A stretch of DNA of 64,000 nucleotides from Chloroflexota bacterium (GTDB taxonomy: Bacteria; Chloroflexota; Anaerolineae; Anaerolineales; UBA4823): positions 62,001-126,000 of the forward strand of contig JAJUJL010000012.1 in assembly GCA_029265355.1 (NCBI GenBank), written 5' to 3'. The notes below the pieces were generated by a model, which had not been told where the DNA came from, did not search any database, and worked only from the letters and a program-made list of their open reading frames with translations. Position numbers and translations under genes: made by a program. Shown one piece after another: positions 1 through 62,190 of the stretch. Each line of letters opens with the position of its first letter. Position 1 is the first letter of the stretch.

Positions 1-684
1 CAACTGGCTTTCATCAATGGATTGGGAATCGATTGCTGCAGTGATGTCCACGTATTCGCTGAGCGAGCCATCGTCTTCCACCACGCGCACGTAGGGTATT
101 TCCTGCTCCTCAGGGTCTGTGGGCAGGTAATAAACCTTGTTTTCGATGTGCCAGTGAATGCCGCGTCCCAGGCCTTCGCGCTTGCTACCGCCGCCGGTTT
201 TGAGCACCAGGAAAGTGCTGATGGGTGTGTTGCTGCGATCATTGGCATAACTGCGGATTTCACGCAGGCTATCATCAGAGAATTTTTGCGGCGAATGGCA
301 CAGCTCACAAGTTTCACGCGCCGGGCGCAGGTCGCCTGCCCGGATGGGGAATTCATAGTCCTTGAAAGCCAGGGAGATAATGTGCTTGGCATCGCCCGCT
401 TTGCGGGTGATGCGGGTGGCGATAAAACCCTTCCCGATGTGGCAATCCACGCAATCGATGCGGGCGTGGGGGGAAGTCAGGTAAGCGGTATATTCCGGCG
501 GCATGGTATGGCAGGTTTCGCCGCAAAAGGGAGGAGAGTTGGTGTATTCCCAGGCATAAGCGCTGCCCGTCAGCACCACCAGGGTCAAGATGCCCATGAC
601 CACGTAAGGCATGACGCGCACCCAGCGTGACGCGCCTGCGGGGGGGAAGAAGAAATTTTTCAGCCAGCGGGCGATTTTTTTCAC
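1..684 (-). CDS. NapC/NirT-type membrane multihaem cytochrome c (C-terminus off window)
   Basis: Reading the minus strand from a GTG at 684 gives 228 codons open to the window edge. Residues about 24-44 form one membrane anchor, followed by CGETCH (54-59), CVDCH (78-82) and CELCH (126-130) haem-binding motifs. This is the plan of NapC/NirT/NrfH quinol-oxidising cytochromes, which pass electrons from menaquinol to periplasmic or exterior partners. The start is chosen because GGAGAG lies 6 nt upstream. The gene diverges from a sensor kinase gene. The electron acceptor partner would lie left of the window and is not visible. A four- or five-haem count is expected for the family, but only three motifs are seen here. 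Confidence 0.85.
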   Translation of the reverse strand, partial: MKKIARWLKNFFFPPAGASRWVRVMPYVVMGILTLVVLTGSAYAWEYTNSPPFCGETCHTMPPEYTAYLTSPHARIDCVDCHIGKGFIATRITRKAGDAKHIISLAFKDYEFPIRAGDLRPARETCELCHSPQKFSDDSLREIRSYANDRSNTPISTFLVLKTGGGSKREGLGRGIHWHIENKVYYLPTDPEEQEIPYVRVVEDDGSLSEYVDITAAIDSQSIDESQL

Positions 685-847
685 GAACCACTCTCCAATG
701 GAGGCGCTGCGATAACAAATGATTACATAAAAAAATCATGGCGACGGAGCAGCTTGCAGGAGAGCATATTCGTCGCTATACTACTATATGTTGGGTTATT
801 TACCCGACGGCTAACAGCCTATCAGATGAGATGATTTTACCTTAATT

Positions 848-3086: not shown

Positions 3087-3249
3087 GGCTCTAATCGGTT
3101 TTTTTCGTTTATCTCAGACATCATTAATCTATATGTGCCAGAATCTAAGTTAGACTCTAAGCCTGTTTCTGACTGTGTGCAGGGCGCTGGTTACGCTCAT
3201 AAAAATGCACAGCGAAATAGCTACCCTACGGAGGATAACTTTCACCGAC

Positions 3250-3765
3250 ATGGAAAACACGCTGAACACGACATCAACGGTTCGCTCTGCGGGGCGAACA
3301 AAATTCATTGTCGGCGGCTTATTGATCGTGGCTGCTGTCATCTACCTGATCGTTTCTTCCACCCAGGCCAATGCGCAATATTTCCTGACTGTTGATGAGC
3401 TACAAGCCAAGGGCAGCAGCGTCTCCGGGCGCGATCTGCGCATTTCTGGCGCAGTGATTGGCGATTCGATCCAGTATGACGCCTCTACCCTGACGCTGAC
3501 CTTCACGGTGGCGCATGTTCCTGGCGACAACAAAGAGATCGAAGCTCAGGGCGGCCTTGCACAAGTGCTCCACGAAGCAGTCACGGATCCCACCCGAAAT
3601 CGCTTGCAAGTGGTCTACAATGGCGTGATGCCCGACCTGCTACGCAATGAAGCGCAGGCGATTATGACAGGACGCATTGGCGAGGATGGCCGCTTCTACG
3701 CCGATGAGCTGCTGCTCAAGTGCCCCACGAAATACGAAGAAGCCGTTCCAGAACAAAGCGGTTAG
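3250..3765 (+). CDS. ccmE: Cytochrome c maturation haem chaperone CcmE, CxxxY type
   Basis: The 171-residue protein has one N-terminal membrane anchor (about 18-37) and an OB-fold domain with the family pattern VxYNGVMPDLLR and GRIGEDGRFYADELLLKC. CcmE holds haem covalently outside the membrane before handing it to CcmF. In the classical proteins the haem ligand is His in an HxxxY motif. Here the site reads C158-P-T-K-Y162, the CxxxY variant known from archaea and some sulphate reducers. GGAGG lies 15 nt upstream of the chosen ATG, a long spacing, so the start is not certain. The gene opens the ccm locus. Confidence 0.88.
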   Translation: MENTLNTTSTVRSAGRTKFIVGGLLIVAAVIYLIVSSTQANAQYFLTVDELQAKGSSVSGRDLRISGAVIGDSIQYDASTLTLTFTVAHVPGDNKEIEAQGGLAQVLHEAVTDPTRNRLQVVYNGVMPDLLRNEAQAIMTGRIGEDGRFYADELLLKCPTKYEEAVPEQSG

Positions 3766-3800
3766 TCGCTTGCTGCTCACCCGCTTGGACTTCTTTGGCA

Positions 3801-3828
3801 GGAACGCTTGCCTCACGGCAGGCGTTCC
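3801..3828 (+). terminator. Hairpin between ccmE and ccmF
   Basis: GGAACGCTTGCC (3801-3812) pairs with GGCAGGCGTTCC (3817-3828) with one mismatch and a 4-nt loop. Only a short TT follows, so it may be a weak terminator, a processing site or an mRNA-stability element between ccmE and ccmF. Confidence 0.5.
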
Positions 3829-3910
3829 TTAAGTGCTGATGATTGAGACCTGACGTCACTATTCCCCCTCGCCCTGCAATTTCCTTACTGATGGTGCCTG
3901 AATACGGAGA

Positions 3911-5971
3911 ATGTCTATGATTGCAAACCTTGGTTATGGCTCTCTGGTGATCACCTTCCTGCTATCATTGTACGGCGTTTTCGCTGCGGTTTATGGCGCG
4001 CGCCGGAATGCGCCTGCCTGGGTGGACAGTGCGCGCAACGCCATGTTGTTGACCTTTCCGCTGCTGACCTTGTCGGCCTTGAGCATTATCTACCTGCTGG
4101 TGAATGGCAACTACGAAGTGGAGTATGTCGCCTCGGTAACCAGCAACAGCATGCCGATGTATCTCAAGGTGACCGCCCTGTGGGGCGGGCAGGCAGGTTC
4201 GCTGGTGTTTTGGACCTGGCTGATGGCAGCCTTTGCCTCTGCGGTTACCTTGCGCAAATGGGATCGCGACCGCGAGTTCTTGCCCTGGGTCATCGTGGTA
4301 GCATTGATTACCCTGGCCTTTTTCCTGTTGATGATCATTTTCTTTGAGAATCCCTTCGAACGCATCTGGCGACTGCCTTTTGGTCAACCCGTTAAGGCCA
4401 TGTTTCCGCCAGCCGGAGCCGAGCTGCTCATCCAGCCAGATGGTCGCGGGCTGAACCCGCTGCTGCGTCACCCGGGGATGATCATTCACCCGCCGATGCT
4501 TTACCTGGGTTTCGTCTCTTTCGTGATCCCGTACGCTTTCGCCATCGCTGCTCTGGTCACCGGGCGCACCGACGATCGCTGGATCCGCCTCACCCGTCGT
4601 TGGACGCTGGTGGCCTGGCTTTTCCTCTCGCTTGGACTGGTGCTGGGTGGACGTTGGGCTTACGATGTGCTCGGCTGGGGTGGGTATTGGGGCTGGGATC
4701 CGGTGGAGATTGCCGCCTTCATGCCCTGGCTCACCGGGACTGCCTTCCTTCATTCCGTGATGATCCAGGAAAAGCGCGGCATGCTCAAGCACTGGAATAT
4801 GGTGCTGGTTATCCTGACTTATGACCTGGTGATCTTTGGCACTTTCTTGACTCGCTCGGGTGTGCTTTCTTCGGTGCATGCTTTTGCTCAGAGCGCCATC
4901 GGCCCGCTGTTCTTCGTCTTTATCGGTCTGACGTTGATCGCTTCGGTGGCTTTACTGCTCTACCGCTGGTCTGAGCTAAAGGCCGAAGCCGAGATGACCT
5001 CGCTGTTCTCGCGAGAAGCGCTCTTCCTTTTGAATAACCTGCTCTTCCTGGGCATCCTGGTGGTGTGTTTTTGGGGAGTGATCTTCCCCTTAATTTCTGA
5101 GCTGGTCACCGGGCAAAAAGTGACCGTGGGTCCGCCTTTCTATGAGCGCGCCACAGGCCCGCAGTTTGCTGCTCTATTGCTGTTGATGGGTGTGGCGCCC
5201 CTGGCTGCCTGGCGGCACTCGACCGCCAAGACGCTGGGACGCGCCATCTGGCGCCCTGCGCTTTTCTCTTTGCTCGTTCTGGCAGCCGTGATCGTCAGCG
5301 GTGTGACCAATTGGGCCGCCCTGTTGGGATTCTGGCTGTCGGCTTTCGTGGCTTCGGTAACTCTGTACGAATTCTGGCGCGGCGCGCTGGCCCGCCATCG
5401 CACGTCTGGCGAATCGTTGCCGCTGGCGCTGTGGCGCTTGATGGGGCGCAACCGCCGTCGCTACGGTGGTTACATCATTCACCTGGGTGTGGTGCTGATG
5501 GCGATTGGTGTTATTGGCATCGAGCTTTTTCAGACCGAAACCCAGGGCACGATTGCCCAGGGTGAGCGCCTGACACTCGGCCGTTTTGCAATCCAGTTCG
5601 ATGAGCTGGCTAATTTCGACACCCCAGATGGTCGCAACGTGGCGCGCGCCGTGGTCAGCGTTTACAAGGATGGCGAAAAAGTCCGTGAGCTGTACCCACG
5701 CCGGGATTACTATTACGAGTCGCAACAGCCCATGACTATCCCTGGCGTGCGCAGCACCTGGGAGGATGATTTCTACGTTCTGCTGGTGGATTGGCAGCCG
5801 GTTTCGGCCTCTGGGGCGACCTTTAAGGTGTATCATAACCCGTTGGTAAACTGGTTATGGTTGGGCAGTATCATTTTCATCTTGGGTACAATGGTAGCTG
5901 CCTGGCCGGATAAAGACCCCGAAACTGAGGCCAGAATGGTGCGCCGCACGCTGGTCGCCGCCAGGGCATAG
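3911..5971 (+). CDS. ccmF: Haem lyase subunit CcmF
   Basis: The 686-residue polytopic protein has about 14 hydrophobic segments. It carries LWGGQAGSLVFW near residue 95 and the haem-handling WWD-type signature WGGYWGWDPVEIAAF near residue 255. CcmF receives haem from CcmE and, with CcmH, attaches it to CxxCH cysteines of apocytochromes outside the membrane. Its length is usual for the family. ATG at 3911 follows GGAGA. It is the second gene of the maturation locus and is followed 31 nt later by ccmH. Confidence 0.95.
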   Translation: MSMIANLGYGSLVITFLLSLYGVFAAVYGARRNAPAWVDSARNAMLLTFPLLTLSALSIIYLLVNGNYEVEYVASVTSNSMPMYLKVTALWGGQAGSLVFWTWLMAAFASAVTLRKWDRDREFLPWVIVVALITLAFFLLMIIFFENPFERIWRLPFGQPVKAMFPPAGAELLIQPDGRGLNPLLRHPGMIIHPPMLYLGFVSFVIPYAFAIAALVTGRTDDRWIRLTRRWTLVAWLFLSLGLVLGGRWAYDVLGWGGYWGWDPVEIAAFMPWLTGTAFLHSVMIQEKRGMLKHWNMVLVILTYDLVIFGTFLTRSGVLSSVHAFAQSAIGPLFFVFIGLTLIASVALLLYRWSELKAEAEMTSLFSREALFLLNNLLFLGILVVCFWGVIFPLISELVTGQKVTVGPPFYERATGPQFAALLLLMGVAPLAAWRHSTAKTLGRAIWRPALFSLLVLAAVIVSGVTNWAALLGFWLSAFVASVTLYEFWRGALARHRTSGESLPLALWRLMGRNRRRYGGYIIHLGVVLMAIGVIGIELFQTETQGTIAQGERLTLGRFAIQFDELANFDTPDGRNVARAVVSVYKDGEKVRELYPRRDYYYESQQPMTIPGVRSTWEDDFYVLLVDWQPVSASGATFKVYHNPLVNWLWLGSIIFILGTMVAAWPDKDPETEARMVRRTLVAARA

Positions 5972-6002
5972 GATTTGGGCAATGCAACCGAGGAGAGTAG
6001 GA

Positions 6003-6488
6003 ATGAAGAAATTTTTATTGATCGGTTTGCTGACCTGTTTACTGGCTGGCTTGTCCACCGGCCTGGCTTTGGCACAGGATCCTCAGCCAGGCCTGCCGTC
6101 CGATGACCAGGTGAACGCCATCGCCAAGCAGCTTTATTGCCCGGTCTGTGAGAACATTCCTCTGGATGTGTGCGGCACGCAAGCCTGCGCCCAATGGCGC
6201 GAGCTGATCCGCGAAAAGCTGAGCCAGGGTTGGAGCGAGGCGCAGATCAAGCAATATTTTGTCGATCAATACGGCGATCGGGTGCTGGCTACGCCGCCAG
6301 CGCGCGGTCTGAACTGGCTGGTCTATGTCGTTCCACCGCTTGCCATACTGCTGGGAGCTTTCATGCTGTACCGCGCCTTCCGCGCCTGGAAGCAGCCTGC
6401 ACTGCCATTGGCGGAGAGCAACAGCAGCCTCCAGTCTCCGGCGGATGAGTACGTGCGCCGCCTGGAAGAAGAACTGCGCAATCGCTGA
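6003..6488 (+). CDS. ccmH: Cytochrome c biogenesis protein CcmH
   Basis: The 161-residue protein has a signal sequence (1-24), then the redox motif YCPVCEN and the conserved helix segment CAQWRELIREKLSQGWSEAQI followed by QYGDRVLA, all diagnostic for CcmH/CycL; these are quoted in pieces from residues about 40-95. A membrane segment follows at about 105-125. It keeps apocytochrome cysteines reduced for haem ligation with CcmF. ATG at 6003 is preferred over the in-frame ATG at 5982 because GGAGAG lies 7-12 nt before it. The family usually shows RCxxCQ, so CPVCEN is a variant. Confidence 0.9.
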   Translation: MKKFLLIGLLTCLLAGLSTGLALAQDPQPGLPSDDQVNAIAKQLYCPVCENIPLDVCGTQACAQWRELIREKLSQGWSEAQIKQYFVDQYGDRVLATPPARGLNWLVYVVPPLAILLGAFMLYRAFRAWKQPALPLAESNSSLQSPADEYVRRLEEELRNR

Positions 6489-6519
6489 GATTTTACAGAC
6501 TGGGAGCAAATTTGCAAAC

Positions 6520-7089
6520 ATGACAAACTTGCCTGAGACAACAATTATCGAAACATCGAAACCTCAACCACTGAGCTGGGGGCGGATGTTGGTGTGGTTG
6601 GGCGTGCTGGCGCTGCTGGCATTGCTGGCATTGGGTGTGCGGCGCGCCCAGCAAGGCCCGGTCCAGGAAGGGGATCGAGTTCCAAATTTCACGTTGACTA
6701 CCTTTGAGGGTGAAACGGTCAATCTCACCGATTTGCAGGGCAAGGTGGTGGTATTGAATTTTTGGGCTTCCTGGTGCACTCCCTGCGAGCAGGAGGCGGC
6801 TGACCTGGAAGCAGCCTGGCGCGAATACCAGCCAGGCGGAGAAGTGGTCTTCCTGGGGGTGGATTACGTGGACACCGAGCCGGAGGCGATGGCTTACTTG
6901 AAGAAATTCGACATTACCTATCCCAATGGCCCCGACCTCGGCACACGCATCTCACAGGCTTTCCGCATTCGCGGCGTCCCGGAAACATACATCATCGACC
7001 GGGAAAACGTGCTCCGCTATACGAAGATTGGGCCTTTCGACTCGAAGGCTGAAATCATTGCCATCATCGAACCGCTGCTCAATGAGTAA
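6520..7089 (+). CDS. Membrane-anchored thiol-disulfide oxidoreductase (ResA/CcmG-like)
   Basis: The 189-residue protein has an anchor at about 22-41 and a TlpA-like thioredoxin domain with the active site W85-C-T-P-C89 and the cis-Pro segment RGVPETYIID. Proteins of this family reduce CcmH or apocytochrome cysteines on the outer face of the membrane. The start is ATG 6520, 9 nt after GGGAGC; a longer open frame upstream overlaps ccmH in another frame and is not used. Position in the operon supports the CcmG role. Confidence 0.9.
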   Translation: MTNLPETTIIETSKPQPLSWGRMLVWLGVLALLALLALGVRRAQQGPVQEGDRVPNFTLTTFEGETVNLTDLQGKVVVLNFWASWCTPCEQEAADLEAAWREYQPGGEVVFLGVDYVDTEPEAMAYLKKFDITYPNGPDLGTRISQAFRIRGVPETYIIDRENVLRYTKIGPFDSKAEIIAIIEPLLNE

Positions 7090-7126
7090 CCGGCGGTGGG
7101 ATAATTACGAACGCGGTGGATAAAAG

Positions 7127-7672
7127 ATGGATATCGGTTCGATATTTCTGATACTCGGCCTGCTGGTTTTGGTGGGCTTGTTCGTAGCGCGACCTTTGAT
7201 CGAACGCAGCGCAGTGGCTGTGAGCCAGCAAGAGCACGAATTGTCTGCTCTGATGGCAGAGCGTGACCAGGTATTGAACGCTTTGCAAGAGCTGGATTTT
7301 GACTTCAAACTGGGCAAAATCCCCGAAGATGAGTATCCGGCGCAACGCGCTGCCTTATTGCAGCACGGCGCTGAGGTCCTGCGCAAGCTGGATGCATACC
7401 AGCCCGCGCCGCTCAGCGAGGCTGCTGAAGATCGCCTGGAGCAGGCGATTGCCCGGCGGAGGGCAGATGCTGCGGCGATGCCGCGCAACGGCGCCGGTTC
7501 TCGCTTAAAAGTGAGTGCGGTGGCAGCCGCGCAGGAGGACGATCTGGAGGCTTTGATCGCCACTCGCCGCCGTGAGCGCACCGAAAAGGCGGCTGGCTTC
7601 TGCTCACAGTGCGGCGCTCCGCTGCAGCAGTCTGATCATTTCTGTCCCAAATGCGGCTCAAAACAAAAGTAA
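7127..7672 (+). CDS. Membrane protein with C-terminal zinc ribbon, CcmI-like helical region
   Basis: The 181-residue protein has one N-terminal membrane segment (about 5-22), a helical region with LDFDFKLGKIPEDEYPAQRA near residues 55-75, and a C-terminal zinc ribbon with CSQC (about 160) and CPKC (about 175). The position in the ccm operon and the helix-rich middle suggest a CcmI-like apocytochrome-handling or assembly role, but this is inference. The PEDxY helical motif recurs at the C-terminus of the next protein. Confidence 0.75.
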   Translation: MDIGSIFLILGLLVLVGLFVARPLIERSAVAVSQQEHELSALMAERDQVLNALQELDFDFKLGKIPEDEYPAQRAALLQHGAEVLRKLDAYQPAPLSEAAEDRLEQAIARRRADAAAMPRNGAGSRLKVSAVAAAQEDDLEALIATRRRERTEKAAGFCSQCGAPLQQSDHFCPKCGSKQK

Positions 7673-7713
7673 GCGGCTGCCAATAGAAAGACTCTCAAAG
7701 AAAATTTCTCCCA

Positions 7714-9669
7714 ATGAACAAACGATTAATCGCTCTTCTTCTGTTGATGATGGCAACTTCAGTGCTGCTGTCTGCCTGCGAATTCTCGCTGGCAGCCGAT
7801 ATCACACCGCCGCCGGGTGCGCAGCAAATCTCCACTGCCCGCACGCAACCGGCAGGCACCAGCGGGCCGCTCTACCCGCTGGTGCCGCCCGACCCGGTCA
7901 ATGGGCAGGCGATCTACGCCGAGAAGTGCGCTCCCTGTCACGGGAATACTGGGTTGGGAGATGGCCCCCAGGCCTCACAGTTGCCTAATCCGGTGACCGC
8001 GCTGGCCTCCCTGGAAGTGGCTCGCCAGGCTACCCCGGCGCGTTGGTACACCCAGGTCACCCAGGGCAACCTCGAAAAATTCATGCCCCCTTTCCGCAGC
8101 CTCTCAGAGCGAGAGCGTTGGGATGTGGTGGCGTATGCTTTCTCGCTCAGTTTACCGGCTGAAGTATCCAGCACGGGGGCTGCATTGTATCAAGAAAACT
8201 GCGCCCGCTGCCATGGCGCAACCGGGCAGGGCGATGGCGTGGAGGCTGCCAACCTGGGAACCACGGTGGTAAACCTGACCGACCAGGCCAAGATGGCGCA
8301 ACGTACCCAGGCCGACTTTTACGCCGCCATCACCAATGGCGTTGCGCCGGCGATGCCCGCATTTGCCAGCACGTTGAGCGAGGACGAGCGTTGGGTGTTG
8401 GCAGGCTACCTGCGCACATTGTCATTTGTATCCAGCAACCAGCCTCAGGCAAGCCAGCAAACTGGTGACCAAGGCACGCCTGCGCCGGAAACCACGCCCA
8501 TCACTGCCACCCTGCCGGTGAGCGGCACCGCAGTGGCGGCAGCCCCCGAAGCTGCGACCAGCCTGGGTGTGATCAGCGGCAGCGTGGTGAACGCATCTGG
8601 CGGCGATGCACCGGTGGGCGCTGAAGTGCTGTTGCGCGGCTTCGACGATATGACCGAGGTCTACTCACAGACCACCACGGTTGGGGAGAATGGCACTTAC
8701 ACCTTCGAGAATGTCGAGATGCCCGAGGGCCGCGTCTTCATGGTCACACTGGATTACAACGATGCGGTCTATGGTTCGGATATTGCCATTGTCGAAGCCG
8801 GCACAACCAGCATGGATCTGCCGGTGACTGTGTATGACACCACGAGCGATACATCATCGCTCTCGGCTGATCGCCTGCACCTGTTCTTCGAGTTCACTGA
8901 AGATCAGCGCAGTGTACGCGTTATCCAGCTTTTCATTTTGTCGAACAGCAGCAATAAGACGGTGGTGCCGCCAGCAGAAGGACAGCCCAGCGTGACCTTT
9001 AGTTTGCCCGAGGGGGCTACCAACCTGGAGTTTCAGGATGGTGTTTTGGGCGGGCGTTACATCGAAACCGAAGATGGATTCGGCGACACCGCCGCCATAC
9101 GCCCGGGCAGCGGCACGCACGAGGTGCTGTTTGCCTATGAGCTGCCTTACGATCGCAAGCTGGACCTGGCGCAGAAGATGACCCTGCCGGTTGGCGCGGT
9201 GATCATCTTGCTGCCGGAAGGCGGCGTGAAAGTCAAGGGCGATACCCTGCAAGATGCCGGTGTGCGCGATGTGCAGGGCGTGCAGTATCACCTGTACAAC
9301 GGTCAAGGCCTGGCGGCCGGTTCTCTGCTCAACCTGACGCTGAGCGGTGCGCCAGCGACCGCCTCTGCTGGCATCACACTGGGTTCTTCGACCAACCTGG
9401 TGGTCGGATTGGGCGCCTTTGGGTTAGCGCTGGTAGCGGCGGGCGTCTGGTTATACCGGCGCAGCCGCAGCAGCGAGCAGGAAACCGACTTGATCGAAGA
9501 GGCCGAGCTTCCGGTTAGCGATGCAGAGGAAAGCGCTGAATCTTTGATCGACGCGATCATTGCCCTGGATGACCTGTACCAGGACGGCCAACTTCCAGAA
9601 GACGCCTACCAGCAGCGCCGCGCGGAGCTAAAGGCTCGCTTGGAGGAAGTGTATCGTCGCGGGCAGTGA
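7714..9669 (+). CDS. Dihaem cytochrome c lipoprotein with regulatory-like beta domain and cytoplasmic tail
   Basis: The 651-residue protein has a lipobox LLSAC22, then two cytochrome c domains with CAPCH (72-76) and CARCH (about 163-167), each with a distal Met candidate (KFMPPF; PAMPAF). A low-complexity linker follows, then a carboxypeptidase-regulatory-like beta domain (about 285-365), a further beta region, a membrane helix (about 565-587) and an acidic tail with LYQDGQLPEDAYQQRRAEL. It lies inside the ccm operon and overlaps ccmA by 4 nt. It is probably an electron carrier on the outer face; the partner is unknown. Both a lipid anchor and a transmembrane helix are unusual. Confidence 0.8.
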   Translation: MNKRLIALLLLMMATSVLLSACEFSLAADITPPPGAQQISTARTQPAGTSGPLYPLVPPDPVNGQAIYAEKCAPCHGNTGLGDGPQASQLPNPVTALASLEVARQATPARWYTQVTQGNLEKFMPPFRSLSERERWDVVAYAFSLSLPAEVSSTGAALYQENCARCHGATGQGDGVEAANLGTTVVNLTDQAKMAQRTQADFYAAITNGVAPAMPAFASTLSEDERWVLAGYLRTLSFVSSNQPQASQQTGDQGTPAPETTPITATLPVSGTAVAAAPEAATSLGVISGSVVNASGGDAPVGAEVLLRGFDDMTEVYSQTTTVGENGTYTFENVEMPEGRVFMVTLDYNDAVYGSDIAIVEAGTTSMDLPVTVYDTTSDTSSLSADRLHLFFEFTEDQRSVRVIQLFILSNSSNKTVVPPAEGQPSVTFSLPEGATNLEFQDGVLGGRYIETEDGFGDTAAIRPGSGTHEVLFAYELPYDRKLDLAQKMTLPVGAVIILLPEGGVKVKGDTLQDAGVRDVQGVQYHLYNGQGLAAGSLLNLTLSGAPATASAGITLGSSTNLVVGLGAFGLALVAAGVWLYRRSRSSEQETDLIEEAELPVSDAEESAESLIDAIIALDDLYQDGQLPEDAYQQRRAELKARLEEVYRRGQ

Positions 9670-10442
9670 GCGCGTTGGAAGTTACCTTGAAGCACGAGGT
9701 CCACGTAGTAAATGACCCAGAGGCCACCAAGATCAACCCTATGATCGACGTTCGTAAGCTGGTAAAACGATTTGGCCTGAAGACCGTGCTGCGCGGCCTG
9801 GATTTTCAAGTTCAGCCGGGCGAGTTTGTGGCTTTGCTGGGGCCGAACGGAGCTGGCAAAACCACCTTCCTGCGCATACTGGCTTCCTTATCGCGCCCCA
9901 ACCTGGGACAGGTGACCATTGCCGGTCATGCTTTGCCAGGCCAGGCTGCTGCTGTGCGCCGGCGATTAGGCGTGGTTTCGCACTTGCCATTGCTGTACAA
10001 CGATCTGACTGCCGAGGAGAATCTGCGTTTCTTCGGGCGCATGTACGCCGTGCCAGATCTCGACCGGCGCATCACGGAAGTCCTTGAACTGGTTGGCCTG
10101 GCGGCGCGCAGGCGCGACCTGGTACGCACCTTCTCGCGCGGCATGCAGCAGCGCCTGGCGATCGGGCGGGCGGTGTTGCACGATCCGGACGTGATGCTGT
10201 TCGACGAGCCGCACACCGGCCTGGATCAGGACGCTTGCCAGATGCTGGATGGTGTGCTGCGCGAGGTGGCGGCGCGCGGCCGCACGGTGGTGATGACCTC
10301 CCACGACCTGGCGCGGTCCGCAGACCTGGCCTCGCGCTTCGATGTGCTTTCGCGTGGCGTGATCATCGCTTCCGTGCAGCGCAAAGAGATCGAGCCGAAT
10401 GATTTGCTGGCTTTCTATCGCCAGGCAACCGCGGGAGCCTGA
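9666..10442 (+). CDS. ccmA: Haem exporter ATP-binding subunit CcmA
   Basis: The 258-residue ABC ATPase has Walker A GPNGAGKTT, a signature written FSRGMQQRLAIGRA (SRGMQQR replaces the usual LSGGQ, as is common in CcmA) and Walker B VMLFDEPHTGLD with a switch His in TSHD. With CcmB it forms the ABC complex that releases holo-CcmE from CcmC. GTG 9666 overlaps the previous stop; ATG 9741 is an alternative that begins directly at the ABC domain (MIDVRKLVKRF). Confidence 0.92.
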   Translation: MSALEVTLKHEVHVVNDPEATKINPMIDVRKLVKRFGLKTVLRGLDFQVQPGEFVALLGPNGAGKTTFLRILASLSRPNLGQVTIAGHALPGQAAAVRRRLGVVSHLPLLYNDLTAEENLRFFGRMYAVPDLDRRITEVLELVGLAARRRDLVRTFSRGMQQRLAIGRAVLHDPDVMLFDEPHTGLDQDACQMLDGVLREVAARGRTVVMTSHDLARSADLASRFDVLSRGVIIASVQRKEIEPNDLLAFYRQATAGA

Positions 10443-10445
10443 GCG

Positions 10446-11165
10446 ATGAAGACCGCTTCCTCGCTTTCCAGAGTGCAGGCCGAGACGCCCAGGTTCACCT
10501 TGCTGCGCGCCACGGCAGCCATTGTGTGGAAAGACCTGGCAGCCGAGCTGCGCAGCCGCGAGCTGCTTTCTTCGATGCTGGTTTTTGCGCTGCTGGTCAT
10601 TTTGATCTTCAATTTCGCGCTGGAGCTGGACGCCCGCACACGTTCCACGGTCACCGCCGGCGTCTTGTGGGTGACCTTTGCCTTTGCCGGTACGTTGGGT
10701 TTGAATCGCTCCATGGCGGTTGAGAAAGACCGTGGCTGCCTGGACGGGCTGCTGCTGGCACCGGTGGATCGCAGCGCGATCTATTTTGGCAAAGCCATCG
10801 GCAACCTGATGTTCATGCTGCTGGTAGAGATCATTGTGCTGCCGCTCTACAGCGTTTTGTACAACACCAACCTGTTCAACCCTGGTTTGCTGCTGGTGAT
10901 CTTCTTGGGTTCGGTTGGTTATATTGCCGTGGGCACTCTGCTGGCGACCATGGCGGTGCAAACCCGCACCCGCGATGTGCTATTGCCCATCCTGCTCTTT
11001 CCGCTGGTGCTGCCCGTGCTCATTTCGGCGGTCAGAGCCAGCACCGGTTTCCTGGGCGGTGCGCCGCTGGAAGAGATCCTTCCGGCGCTGAATTTGCTGA
11101 TCGTTTACGACATCATCTTCATTGCTGCTGCTTTTATGGTCTTTGATTACATCGTGGAGGAGTAA
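10446..11165 (+). CDS. ccmB: Haem exporter permease subunit CcmB
   Basis: The 239-residue protein has six predicted membrane segments. The family elements WKDLAAELRSRELLSSML near residue 30 and LNRSMAVEKDRGCLDGLLLAP near residue 85 (shown in part) fit CcmB. It starts 3 nt after ccmA and forms the transmembrane half of the CcmAB transporter that works with CcmC and CcmE. Confidence 0.92.
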   Translation: MKTASSLSRVQAETPRFTLLRATAAIVWKDLAAELRSRELLSSMLVFALLVILIFNFALELDARTRSTVTAGVLWVTFAFAGTLGLNRSMAVEKDRGCLDGLLLAPVDRSAIYFGKAIGNLMFMLLVEIIVLPLYSVLYNTNLFNPGLLLVIFLGSVGYIAVGTLLATMAVQTRTRDVLLPILLFPLVLPVLISAVRASTGFLGGAPLEEILPALNLLIVYDIIFIAAAFMVFDYIVEE

Positions 11166-11170
11166 ATCAG

Positions 11171-11863
11171 ATGGAAATACAAGTCAAGCCTCGTGCGCTC
11201 ACTATCTTGGATGGCGTATCCGCTGTCCTCTTCTTTGCTGCTCTCGCCATGGTCTTCTTCTACGCACCTATGGAGGCCGTGATGGGACAGGTGCAGCGCG
11301 TTTTCTATTTTCACATTTCCACTGCCTGGGTGGGGATGCTCGGCTTCATGTCGGCTGGCGTAGCGGGCATTGCTTACCTGCGCACGAATAACCGCAAATG
11401 GGATATCGTCGGCACAGCCGCGGTCGAGATCAGCCTGGTTTTCTTCTTTATTGCCATCGTTAGCGGCTCGATCTGGGCGCGACCGGCCTGGAACACCTGG
11501 TGGACCTGGGATGTACGCCTGACGACCGCCACGGTGGTGGAGCTGGTGTACTTTGCCTATATGTTCCTGCGCCAGGGCATCGACGACCCTGACCGGCGCG
11601 CTCGCTTCGGCGCAGTGTACACCATCCTGGGTTTTATCAGCGTACCGCTCACCTTCATCTCCATCCGCATCTTTCAAAGTATCCATCCGGTGGTCATCGG
11701 ACCAGGCGAGGAGCGCATGGGTATGACGCCCGAGATGCGCAATACGATGTTCTTCAGCTTGTTCACCTTCTCGGTGCTGTTTGTGGACCTGCTCTGGCAT
11801 CGCATTCGCCTGGGATGGCTGTCGGATAAAATCGAGCAGTTGCGCTTGAAGTTTGCGCAATAG
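11171..11863 (+). CDS. ccmC: Haem-handling protein CcmC
   Basis: The 230-residue protein has six membrane segments and the tryptophan-rich signature WNTWWTWDVRLTTA near residue 110, with flanking His residues (FYFHIS near 45 and SIHPV near 180) that fit the axial haem ligands of CcmC. It loads haem onto CcmE. The gene starts 5 nt after ccmB. Confidence 0.93.
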   Translation: MEIQVKPRALTILDGVSAVLFFAALAMVFFYAPMEAVMGQVQRVFYFHISTAWVGMLGFMSAGVAGIAYLRTNNRKWDIVGTAAVEISLVFFFIAIVSGSIWARPAWNTWWTWDVRLTTATVVELVYFAYMFLRQGIDDPDRRARFGAVYTILGFISVPLTFISIRIFQSIHPVVIGPGEERMGMTPEMRNTMFFSLFTFSVLFVDLLWHRIRLGWLSDKIEQLRLKFAQ

Positions 11864-24830: not shown

Positions 24831-25204
24831 ATTCCTCCTCCTTATTTTGATCTTAACTGTCATTGCGAAACCAGCGTCGGTTTTTTTACTCGCCTGTGCT
24901 GGTCGTGGCAATCTCCTATCAGGTCATTTTGCGTGACCCACATCGTGCGAGCAGCTTTGTAGACCAGTTATCCTGAACGTAGTAAAGGATCTCTCTGGTT
25001 GCCTTGCGTGATGTTTCGCTGCGCTCAACAGCACATCATAACACTGCAGCGGGCGACCGAATAGCCTGCCTGGATAATCCGGCAACACCCCGGCCACCTT
25101 GCGCTTTTGCAAGGCGCTCATCTATTCTTTATTTGTGCGCATCCTTTCCGCACCTTACTCGACTTAAATATTAATAGCGATTAATCTGCCCGGAGGGCCT
25201 GCCT
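24831..25204. repeat. Dispersed repeats upstream of the first multihaem gene
   Basis: No gene is seen. 24838-24958 is the second copy of the repeat at 13916-14078 (CTGTCATTGCGA and a nearly identical 63-nt block). 24968-24990 has ATCCTGAACGTAGTAAAGGAT, a variant of a short repeat also seen near 48044. An AT-rich stretch at 25163-25185 (TTAAATATTAATAGCGATTA) may hold the promoter of the gene at 25205. Confidence 0.65.
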
Positions 25205-26815
25205 ATGCCTGGTAAAAATATCACCTTCTGGATGAGTGTTGGCTTGCTGCTGGTACTGGCAGCGGCTGGCCTGGCTCTGGCAGACGCTCAACCGGCGGCA
25301 GCCGCGCCGGGCTTCACCCTGGCAAGGGTTGCGGCGTGGTCTGCGCCCAAAACAGCACCCCAGGTGGCACCCCTGGCAGCCCCCCAACAGGTCGAGGCTG
25401 CCGAACCCCCGCATTACCCGCTGCGCTGCACCAACTGCCATGACTTCACCGGGCAGTGCGCCGCCTGCCACCAATCCGATCATCCCAGCGGTCACTACGA
25501 GGTCGAATGCATCGCCTGCCATGTCCCCGGCGATTGGATGCAGGTGATGGTCGATCACATGCAAGCCAGTTTGTTCGACTGCCAGGGCTGCCACCTCGAA
25601 ACGCGCCCTGCCGATCATGGCGAGGGTCAATGCATTACTTGTCACCGCACCTCGAGTTGGGAACCGCCCATCTACCCACACGTGCTGGCGGACACTGCCG
25701 ACTGCGCTGGATGCCACCAGGAAGCCGCCCCGGTAACCCATCCCATACGGCAGTGCTCTGAATGCCACGTGCCCGGCATCTGGGTGCCATCCATCTTCGA
25801 TCACACCAGCCCAGCGGCGTCTGACTGCCAGAGCTGCCATGAGGTCATCCGCCCGGCGAACCACTACCAGGGGCAGTGTTCCGGCTGCCACCAGCCCGGT
25901 ATAGGCTGGAAGTTTGTGCACCGCGGCGGGCAGGCCCTGGACTGCGCTGGTTGTCACGAGGCGAGGCGTCCGCTGAACCATTACCAGGGGCAGTGCTCTG
26001 CCTGCCATTCTCCCGGAGAGTGGGAAGACGCTCGCTTCAACCACGACGCAGCAAAAGCTACCAACTGCCAGACCTGTCACGGCAGTCAGCGCCCGGTTAA
26101 TCACTACTCCGGGCAGTGTTCGCAGTGTCACACTCCAGGTGCGCCCTGGAAAAACGCCAGGATGGATCATACCGGGTTGAGCGACTGCCAGTCCTGCCAC
26201 ACGCGCCCGGCTGGGCACTACCCGGGGCAGTGCTCGCAGTGCCACACCCCAGGTGCGCCCTGGCAGAACGGCAAGATGGATCACACCGGGTTGAGCGACT
26301 GCCAGTCCTGCCACACGCGCCCGGCTGGGCACTACCAGGGACAGTGCTCGCAGTGCCACACGCCCGGCTCGCCCTGGCAGAACGGCAAGATGGATCACAC
26401 CGGGTTGAGCGACTGCCAGTCCTGCCACACGCGCCCGGCTGGGCACTACCAGGGGCAGTGTTCGCAGTGCCACACGCCTGGCTCGCCCTGGCAGAACGGC
26501 AAGATGGATCACACCGGGCTGAAAGACTGCGATTCCTGCCACACGGCCCCAGCAGATCATTGGAGCGGCCAGTGCTCGCAGTGCCACTCTCCCGGAAGCG
26601 GCTGGAATAATATCCGCGTCAACGGGCACACCTTCCCAATGACGCATGGTAAAGCCGGCGGAGTGTGTTCCAACTGCCACGTGGACACCCAGCGCAAGGT
26701 GAACTGTTTTCGATGTCACGATCAAGCCAAGCTGGATAAGAAGCACTTCGAAAAAGGGATACTTGACTATGCTTCGCGCTGCATGGAGTGCCATGGAGAT
26801 GGGAAAAAGCCTTGA
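25205..26815 (+). CDS. Predicted 24-haem secreted cytochrome c
   Basis: The 536-residue protein has a signal peptide (MPGKNITFWMSVGLLLVLAA...ALA) and 24 CxxCH motifs, one per 22 residues, mostly arranged as pairs in units of the form DCQSCH...HYxGQCSQCHTPG...MDHTGL. Extra conserved His residues in GHY and DHT could be distal ligands. Four units from about 26120 to 26590 are almost identical. Such proteins wire electrons over long distances. No lipobox or membrane helix besides the signal is seen. GGAGGG precedes ATG 25205. It needs the ccm system, which is encoded 13 kb upstream. Confidence 0.85.
   Translation: MPGKNITFWMSVGLLLVLAAAGLALADAQPAAAAPGFTLARVAAWSAPKTAPQVAPLAAPQQVEAAEPPHYPLRCTNCHDFTGQCAACHQSDHPSGHYEVECIACHVPGDWMQVMVDHMQASLFDCQGCHLETRPADHGEGQCITCHRTSSWEPPIYPHVLADTADCAGCHQEAAPVTHPIRQCSECHVPGIWVPSIFDHTSPAASDCQSCHEVIRPANHYQGQCSGCHQPGIGWKFVHRGGQALDCAGCHEARRPLNHYQGQCSACHSPGEWEDARFNHDAAKATNCQTCHGSQRPVNHYSGQCSQCHTPGAPWKNARMDHTGLSDCQSCHTRPAGHYPGQCSQCHTPGAPWQNGKMDHTGLSDCQSCHTRPAGHYQGQCSQCHTPGSPWQNGKMDHTGLSDCQSCHTRPAGHYQGQCSQCHTPGSPWQNGKMDHTGLKDCDSCHTAPADHWSGQCSQCHSPGSGWNNIRVNGHTFPMTHGKAGGVCSNCHVDTQRKVNCFRCHDQAKLDKKHFEKGILDYASRCMECHGDGKKP
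26126..26581 (+). repeat. Four 114-bp tandem repeats inside the multihaem gene
   Basis: GACTGC anchors of successive units lie at 26183, 26297, 26411 and 26525, an exact 114-bp (38-codon) period. Each unit encodes two CxxCH motifs. The middle units are nearly identical at DNA level, so recent expansion or gene conversion, with variable haem number among strains, is likely. Confidence 0.9.
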
Positions 26816-26862
26816 TAGGCCTTGTGGTGGGGAGCACTGACTTCATACCTAACACCCCATTC

Positions 26863-26892
26863 CCGGGCGTGCGATCCCCATCGCATGCCCGG
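26863..26892 (+). terminator. Intrinsic terminator after the 24-haem gene
   Basis: CCGGGCGTGCGAT (26863-26875) pairs with ATCGCATGCCCGG (26880-26892) with one wobble, a CCCC loop and a short T-run (CTTTT) a few bases later. It separates the two multihaem genes, so they may be transcribed apart. Confidence 0.75.
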
Positions 26893-27018
26893 TGTGCTTT
26901 TCCTGGTAAGAGTATTGGCTTAATAAATTAATGCAACTCATTTAGCAGTACCTGCAGTGCCTCCCCAACGTCTTAAGTAACGAGTGCACACATTGACGCG
27001 CGCGTGGAGGACTGGGTA

Positions 27019-28302
27019 ATGAGTGGAAAGAGTGGTATCTCCCTGATGCTTATTGGCCTACTGCTGGTATTGGCTGCAACGGCTGCGGCGCTGGCTGATG
27101 TGGGGCGTGCCGCAGCCGCGCAAGATTTTTCAATGGATAATTCCACGGCGCTGTTGGCTGCCGGGGCTGAAGCGCAGCCAACCCAGGCTCCAGAAGCGCA
27201 TCACTACCCTTTACGCTGCACCGACTGCCACGACTTCACCGGGCAGTGCATCATCTGCCACGCGACAGATCGCCCCGACGGTCACTACCAGATCGAATGC
27301 CTCTCCTGCCATATCCCCGGGGACTGGAAGCAAGTCGTGGTTGATCACGATCATCCCCAGATGATCGATTGCCAGACCTGCCACCTGGGAATCCGCCCGC
27401 AGGAGCACCACGAAGGGCAGTGCTACACCTGCCACATCGCCCGCGGCTGGTTGCCGCCTATCTACCCGCACATGCTGCCAGAAACAGCCGACTGCGCCGG
27501 CTGCCACCAGCAGGCCGCGCCGGAAGTGCACCCCACCTGGCAGTGTTCCGAATGCCATGTGCCCGGCGTCTGGAAGCCCTCCACCTTCACCCACCGCGAT
27601 CCACGGGCCGCCGATTGCCTGGTTTGCCACGAAGCTTCCCGCCCCGCCAATCACTACGAACAGCAGTGTTCTCACTGCCACCGACCTGGCATCGGTTGGC
27701 GTTTCTTGCACCTTCACCCAGAGCAATTAGATTGTGCGGGATGCCATGCCGCCGTTACCGCGCCGGCCAACCATTACCAGGCGCAGTGCTCAGCCTGTCA
27801 CAACACCCGCGCCTGGGAACAGGCGCGCTTCAATCACCGCGCCGTGAATGCCAGCGACTGCCAGTCGTGCCACACGCGTCCCGCCGGGCACTACCCGGGC
27901 CAGTGCAGCAACTGTCACACTGCTGGCAGCGACTGGGCGAGCGCCCGCATGAATCACAGCGGGCTGAGCGACTGCCAATCTTGCCATACGCCGCCGGCTG
28001 GGCACTACACCGGGCAGTGCAGCAACTGCCACAATCCGGACAGGACCTGGTCGAGTGTGGATATGGATCACACCGGGCTAACCGACTGCCAGGCATGCCA
28101 TACGCCCCCCGAGGATCACTACACTGGCGACTGCAACAACTGCCACAATCCGAACACCTCGTGGAATGACGTGGACTTTGACCACACGGGATATACGGAC
28201 TGCGCAGACTGTCACACAGCACCCGACAATCACTACCGCGGCCCGTGTAATGTGTGTCACAGCCCGGATGTGCCCTGGGAGGAGACGACCAAGGGCGGCT
28301 GA
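27019..28302 (+). CDS. Predicted 19-haem secreted cytochrome c, paralogue of the preceding gene
   Basis: The 427-residue protein has a signal peptide and 19 CxxCH motifs. Its first 290 residues follow the preceding protein motif by motif (HYPLRCTDCHDFTGQC, CHIPGDWKQVVVDH, YPHMLPETADCAGCHQ), which shows gene duplication. The later units are more divergent (GHYTGQCSNCHNP) and not recently amplified. ATG 27019 follows GGAGG at 8 nt; an upstream GTG is less likely. It ends without the C-terminal CSNCH...CFRCH...CMECH block of its paralogue. Confidence 0.83.
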   Translation: MSGKSGISLMLIGLLLVLAATAAALADVGRAAAAQDFSMDNSTALLAAGAEAQPTQAPEAHHYPLRCTDCHDFTGQCIICHATDRPDGHYQIECLSCHIPGDWKQVVVDHDHPQMIDCQTCHLGIRPQEHHEGQCYTCHIARGWLPPIYPHMLPETADCAGCHQQAAPEVHPTWQCSECHVPGVWKPSTFTHRDPRAADCLVCHEASRPANHYEQQCSHCHRPGIGWRFLHLHPEQLDCAGCHAAVTAPANHYQAQCSACHNTRAWEQARFNHRAVNASDCQSCHTRPAGHYPGQCSNCHTAGSDWASARMNHSGLSDCQSCHTPPAGHYTGQCSNCHNPDRTWSSVDMDHTGLTDCQACHTPPEDHYTGDCNNCHNPNTSWNDVDFDHTGYTDCADCHTAPDNHYRGPCNVCHSPDVPWEETTKGG

Positions 28303-61971: not shown

Positions 61972-62190
61972 ACGGATGGGAGGGGATTGAGGGGAAACAT
62001 TTCTCAGCGCAAGCGACCACAGAGTGGAATGCTACCCTGGAAGGCAGCAGCGGCGGGGCTGAGGCCGCGCGGCAGGATTCATACTCACAACCGTCTGATC
62101 CGAAGTTCAATGGTCACGTAGGCTCGATCAAAAACACCTCTCCCGGCCAGGCGCTAAGCTGCCGGGGGAGGCGAGGGATGGCAGGCAAGG

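Follow-up and report, generated by a model that had tools for sequence, protein, structure and literature searches.

Two neighbouring genes of a Chloroflexota bacterium of the order Anaerolineales (assembly GCA_029265355.1) encode paralogous proteins that combine a predicted export leader with exceptionally dense CxxCH haem-binding motifs. What would such proteins do in this organism: relay or store electrons, assemble into conductive filaments, or catalyze a reaction? We examined the genes within the window (i.e., the whole 64,000-nucleotide stretch analyzed, positions 62,001 to 126,000 of contig JAJUJL010000012.1) and among related genomes.

Two adjacent paralogous cytochrome genes

Cytochrome A (536 amino acids [aa]; 25205..26815, forward strand) consists of a leader (approximately residues 1 to 34), a linker, 24 CxxCH motifs, and a C-terminal cap whose 31-13-25 motif spacing recurs in relatives; its ATG has GGAGG on the 5' side. 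Cytochrome B (426 aa; 27022..28302, forward strand) has a leader and 19 CxxCH motifs, lacks the cap, and is 59% identical to A. The reading frame proposed for B in the first-pass annotation (27004-28302) is real, but the gene probably starts not at GTG 27004 but at ATG 27022, which sits 18 nt inside it and is preceded by GGAGG. That the two genes are adjacent paralogs was borne out. Their dN/dS of 0.22 to 0.23 (pS, 0.64; pN, 0.26) is approximate because the synonymous distance is near saturation, which also implies an old duplication, and the ratio indicates that both proteins are under purifying selection.

A 13-bp terminator-like hairpin (26863..26892, forward strand) lies 3' of cytochrome A, and the 86-nt RNA of this intergenic region has a folding energy of -32.2 kcal/mol (z score, -4.62). 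Cotranscription is thus not to be assumed, and the two genes may be transcribed separately. A search of the window against Rfam returned no RNA families. The G+C fractions by codon position are similar in A (0.61/0.54/0.74) and B (0.62/0.53/0.73). An antisense open reading frame (25181-26794) was rejected as a mirror of the repeat frame, with codon-position G+C fractions (0.75/0.54/0.61) that are those of A reversed.

Arrays of di-haem units

Direct counting confirmed the previously reported 24 and 19 CxxCH motifs in A and B, respectively; 2,000 shuffled versions of mature A contained a mean of 0.48 motifs and a maximum of 4. The earlier estimate of one haem per approximately 22 residues likewise holds for the whole chains (22.3 aa per haem in A and 22.4 in B), and the values for the haem domains alone are 19.0 and 18.3 aa per haem. 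The motifs are paired, as had been noticed, with spacings of 17/24 and, further on, 15/23. Past the leader, both proteins are arrays of di-haem units of approximately 38 to 41 aa, each comprising two CxxCH motifs, two extra histidines, and one invariant tryptophan. The unit in A has the form CxxCH...W...[D/N]H...D-CxxCH-x-x-x-P-x-[N/G]-H-Y-x-G-Q. In a comparison of 77 four-unit segments drawn from many genomes and loci, the motif cysteines and histidines, the tryptophan, and the distal histidines either never vary or reach at least 99% conservation. A hydrophobic leader spans residues 3 to 34 in A and 1 to 33 in B, and there are no other membrane spans in either protein. For cleavage near residue 34, the calculated masses of the fully haem-loaded proteins would be approximately 70 kDa (A) and 55 kDa (B).

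Outside the motifs, there are 24 histidines in A (for 24 motifs) and 23 in B (for 19 motifs), and all cysteines of both mature proteins belong to CxxCH motifs. Because the distal histidines in A equal the haems in number, no haem is left with an evident free coordination position. This favours a role in electron transfer rather than in catalysis and points to bis-histidine haems of the electron transfer type without a catalytic site. A multihaem enzyme (e.g., a nitrogen, sulfur, or metal oxyanion reductase) instead of a carrier is accordingly very improbable: B and its relative in the gene cluster described below do weakly resemble the octahaem tetrathionate reductase family (NCBIfam TIGR04315), but this score, like those of all enzyme families, falls far under the curated cut-off, and every haem in A can have a distal histidine, with none spare.

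Four tandem di-haem units of 114 bp within A (26111..26549, forward strand) share 75 to 96% pairwise DNA identity. These are signs of recent duplication of di-haem units, by which the number of haems would grow. A full-length AlphaFold2 model of A (24 sequences; pLDDT, 53; pTM, 0.23) was discarded, and a four-unit model computed with no haem (pLDDT, 79; pTM, 0.46) had no fold match in the PDB (Foldseek, VIA).

Placement among known multihaem cytochromes

Above Pfam cut-offs, A matches Cytochrome_C7, Cytochrom_CIII, Cytochrom_c3_2, and Paired_CXXCH_1, and B matches Cytochrom_CIII and Cytochrome_C7. Both proteins score above the curated PF02085 and PF14522 cut-offs and have distal histidines matched to the motifs, which places them in the class III/c7 superfamily, with predicted bis-histidine ligation. 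Neither contains a domain of the NapC/NirT quinol dehydrogenase family (PF03264). Among solved structures, a profile of the family matched the Geobacter dodecahaem c7-type cytochrome 3ov0 (6e-11), HmcA (1h29; 3.8e-10), and also nonahaem cytochromes, while octahaem cytochromes showed weaker sequence similarity. Like A and B, 3ov0 (which we take to be GSU1996) carries c7-type haem repeats within one chain, but it is built of three-haem c7 domains with 12 haems, whereas A and B are built of two-haem units, each with the invariant tryptophan, and reach 19 to 24 haems. HmcA, the 16-haem high-molecular-weight cytochrome (1h29 and 1gws), also bears haem sites of the class III type along a single chain, but its c3-like domains are irregular, in contrast to the regular, stand-alone repeats of A and B. 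The small tetrahaem cytochrome CctA (1m1p), with only four haems, is a weak sequence match to B (E value, 0.013). The paired arrangement had been described as unlike the OmcS/OmcZ and NapC families; PDB searches indeed revealed no sequence match to OmcS, OmcE, or OmcZ, but by profile A and B have kin in the class III/c7 proteins HmcA and GSU1996.

A wire role has been proposed for A and B in common with the OmcS, OmcE, and OmcZ filaments, the haem density of which differs from theirs. That A and/or B polymerize end to end into conductive extracellular filaments of this type is, in our judgment, improbable, although their very high haem density, their repeat architecture, and an export leader in a cell showing no sign of an outer membrane to cross would suit such a structure. 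In addition to the missing sequence match to solved cytochrome filaments, the number of repeats appears free to vary among relatives, from 16 to 42 haems. OmcS and OmcE take a haem ligand from a neighbouring subunit, and OmcZ needs none (PMC12954529). In A, unlike in OmcS and OmcE, a single chain holds as many distal histidines as haems, so that no ligand from a neighbouring subunit would be needed.

Haem maturation, a NapC-like protein, and the cell envelope

As the first-pass annotation stated, the window includes a Ccm system. These System I genes (3175..11863, forward strand) encode CcmE, CcmF, CcmH (at approximately 6063-6401), CcmG-like and CcmI-like proteins, a two-CxxCH cytochrome c, a CcmA-like protein, CcmB, and CcmC. 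The genes for A and B are not part of this locus, from which they are separated by approximately 13 kb that includes several unrelated genes. The presence of ccm genes in the same window, the class III/c7 Pfam matches above cut-off, and the conservation of exact CxxCH motifs with matched distal histidines across relatives make it scarcely credible that the CxxCH units bind other metals or carry no haem.

The NapC-like protein reported previously is also present. The window edge cuts its gene, leaving the N-terminal part (1..735, reverse strand) of a 581-aa NapC/NirT-type multihaem protein (PF03264; E value, 5.8e-10), which is a possible quinol-side donor. Adjoining this gene is one for a lipoprotein-like 736-aa protein with 10 CxxCH motifs (L066:10438-12645).

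No Omp85 was detected in the source genome (estimated to be 98% complete), while seven control genomes were positive, and no porin was found in the window. The absence of Omp85 argues against an outer membrane and thus for a monoderm host, in which an exported protein would lie outside the sole membrane.

Relatives and a recurring gene cluster

Related stretches occurred in 21 of 61 relative genomes (E value, 1e-3), in 30 of 201 genomes of the order (1e-20), and in 2 of 301 genomes across the phylum (1e-25; one of the 2 is the source genome), counts that differ in threshold and do not form one rate. Judging from these searches, the repeat-cytochrome family is clearly concentrated in this order. 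A contig scan revealed only two named relatives, both of which are Chloroflexota metagenome-assembled genomes (one is CP070785.1). The usual relative has an N-terminal DUF5667-like domain of approximately 220 aa followed by 16 to 42 haems; for the source genome's copy, the DUF5667 match is marginal (27.2 bits; cut-off, 27). The member richest in haem sites among those observed here has 42 CxxCH motifs in a 1,074-aa frame (L033:12359-15580). The term "giant" applied to A and B is therefore a relative one, given these relatives and a published protein with 112 motifs (PMC11495043).

In 11 distinct genomes, the neighbours of the relative encode an 18-haem-type cytochrome, a ferredoxin-like protein, an FAD/NAD(P) oxidoreductase, and a protein with four transmembrane segments (four-TM), apparently b-type, with weak similarity to cytochrome b561 (E value, 2.4e-4; below cut-off). 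Several of these clusters also include a 21-haem cytochrome. In the source genome, contig C31 carries the full set, and two more fragments of repeat cytochromes lie where contigs C18 and C56 end. The cluster at L030:7008-15294, which encodes an 18-haem cytochrome, a 30-haem DUF5667-like repeat cytochrome, the ferredoxin-like protein, the FAD/NAD(P) oxidoreductase, the four-TM b-type protein, and a 21-haem cytochrome, and the core of which is found in the 11 genomes, is a possible electron-export pathway.

A has units and cap in common with the cluster-type repeat cytochromes (48 to 56% identity), and B has the units without the cap. Before the first motif, both have only a leader and a linker, with no DUF5667-like domain. 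No cluster partner genes (FeS, FAD, or b-type) were detected in the window by tblastn. A search of 37 further family genomes, several of which are incomplete, gave for the N-terminal part of A and B no ortholog and no match above 47% identity, the matches being to cluster-type repeats. A and B thus look like stand-alone, leader-only offshoots, i.e., duplicates of the cluster's repeat cytochrome in which the DUF5667-like domain was lost or never present.

Other members of the family vary in architecture. Five cytochromes (L050, L053, L057, L058, and L060) are hybrids in which an N-terminal region with 18- or 21-haem-type spacing precedes 17/24 di-haem units, which suggests module shuffling. In one relative (L065:1063-2637), an acidic tail is accompanied by a hydrophobic segment at the C terminus that runs into RRR, an ending reminiscent of a membrane or sorting anchor. 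Two closely similar fragments at contig ends (L031:7470-8210 and L032:3-632), with Thr/Pro-rich C termini, probably reflect assembly breaks on repeats.

Three genomes, all from the same genus, have the cluster oriented divergently from genes for an iron-dependent repressor (DtxR/FeoA domains) and the iron permease FTR1 (L045:12917-14550, L046:12823-14447, and L048:4112-5730). This arrangement raises an alternative, in which the repeat cytochromes are surface reductases of Fe(III) for uptake or respiration and not general relays. There is a precedent in the chloroflexote Ardenticatena maritima, which reduces Fe(III) and exchanges electrons with electrodes (PMC5808234). We regard this alternative as rather unlikely, as the iron neighbourhood was observed in a single genus and is absent both at the source genome's cluster and at the genes for A and B. 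It is, moreover, compatible with a relay role, as a choice of acceptor.

Proposed role

Overall, A and B are likely to be extracytoplasmic electron transfer cytochromes of the class III/c7 type, made of tandem di-haem units, with a role in relaying or storing electrons. This assignment, drawn from sequence, is based on the motifs, the leader, the matched distal histidines in A, the invariance of cysteines and histidines, purifying selection, and unit duplication; counting against it, the two genes do not adjoin the cluster's partner genes. In both chains, all haems would be bis-histidine ligated and close enough for hopping, so that each chain could serve as a relay and as a store of up to 24 (A) or 19 (B) electrons. 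The proteins would lie on the outer side of the single membrane, on the surface or in the wall of the cell. Their membrane donor could be the FAD-FeS-b-cytochrome cluster of contig C31 or the NapC-like protein at the window edge, and they would then pass electrons to an extracellular acceptor or partner. Iron may be one such acceptor, as hinted by the iron neighbourhood in one genus. More tentatively, and as a possibility that we consider less probable than not by some distance, A and B may be a detached outer element of a monoderm Chloroflexota electron-export system, in which electrons would pass from a cytoplasmic NAD(P)H-FAD enzyme and ferredoxin to the four-TM b-type membrane protein, on to the 18- and 21-haem cytochromes, and finally to the 16- to 42-haem repeat cytochrome, with reach or capacity evolving by gain and loss of di-haem units.

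Parts of this picture have precedents. The suggestion that such proteins serve extracellular electron flow in Chloroflexota is plausible given the export leader and the absence of Omp85, but large multihaem cytochromes of Anaerolineales, the motif number of which varies in pairs between close relatives, were already published in 2020 (PMC7399161, Fig. 5). These resemble A and B in phylum, very large size, paired change in motif number, and the lack of a porin partner and, compared by description, are likely homologous to them. The 24- and 49-haem cytochromes of Burkholderiales, for which wire and capacitor roles were proposed, have 22.4 and 23.4 residues per haem (PMC7399161); those are encoded beside an outer membrane porin in diderms, in contrast to A and B. 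With up to 112 CxxCH motifs in one protein (PMC11495043) and 22.4 residues per haem on record, neither the haem count nor the haem density of A and B is new. No description of the FAD-FeS-b-repeat-cytochrome cluster was found in the open-access literature searched, the scope of which is too narrow to establish absence.

Beyond a few Gram-positive thermophiles, little is known about how electrons cross the cell wall of monoderm bacteria. The repeat-cytochrome family represents a natural series whose members differ mainly in the number of di-haem units, so that the relation of length to electron reach or capacity is directly testable, and the recurring FAD-FeS-b-cytochrome cluster provides a specific candidate pathway in a group that is mostly uncultured.
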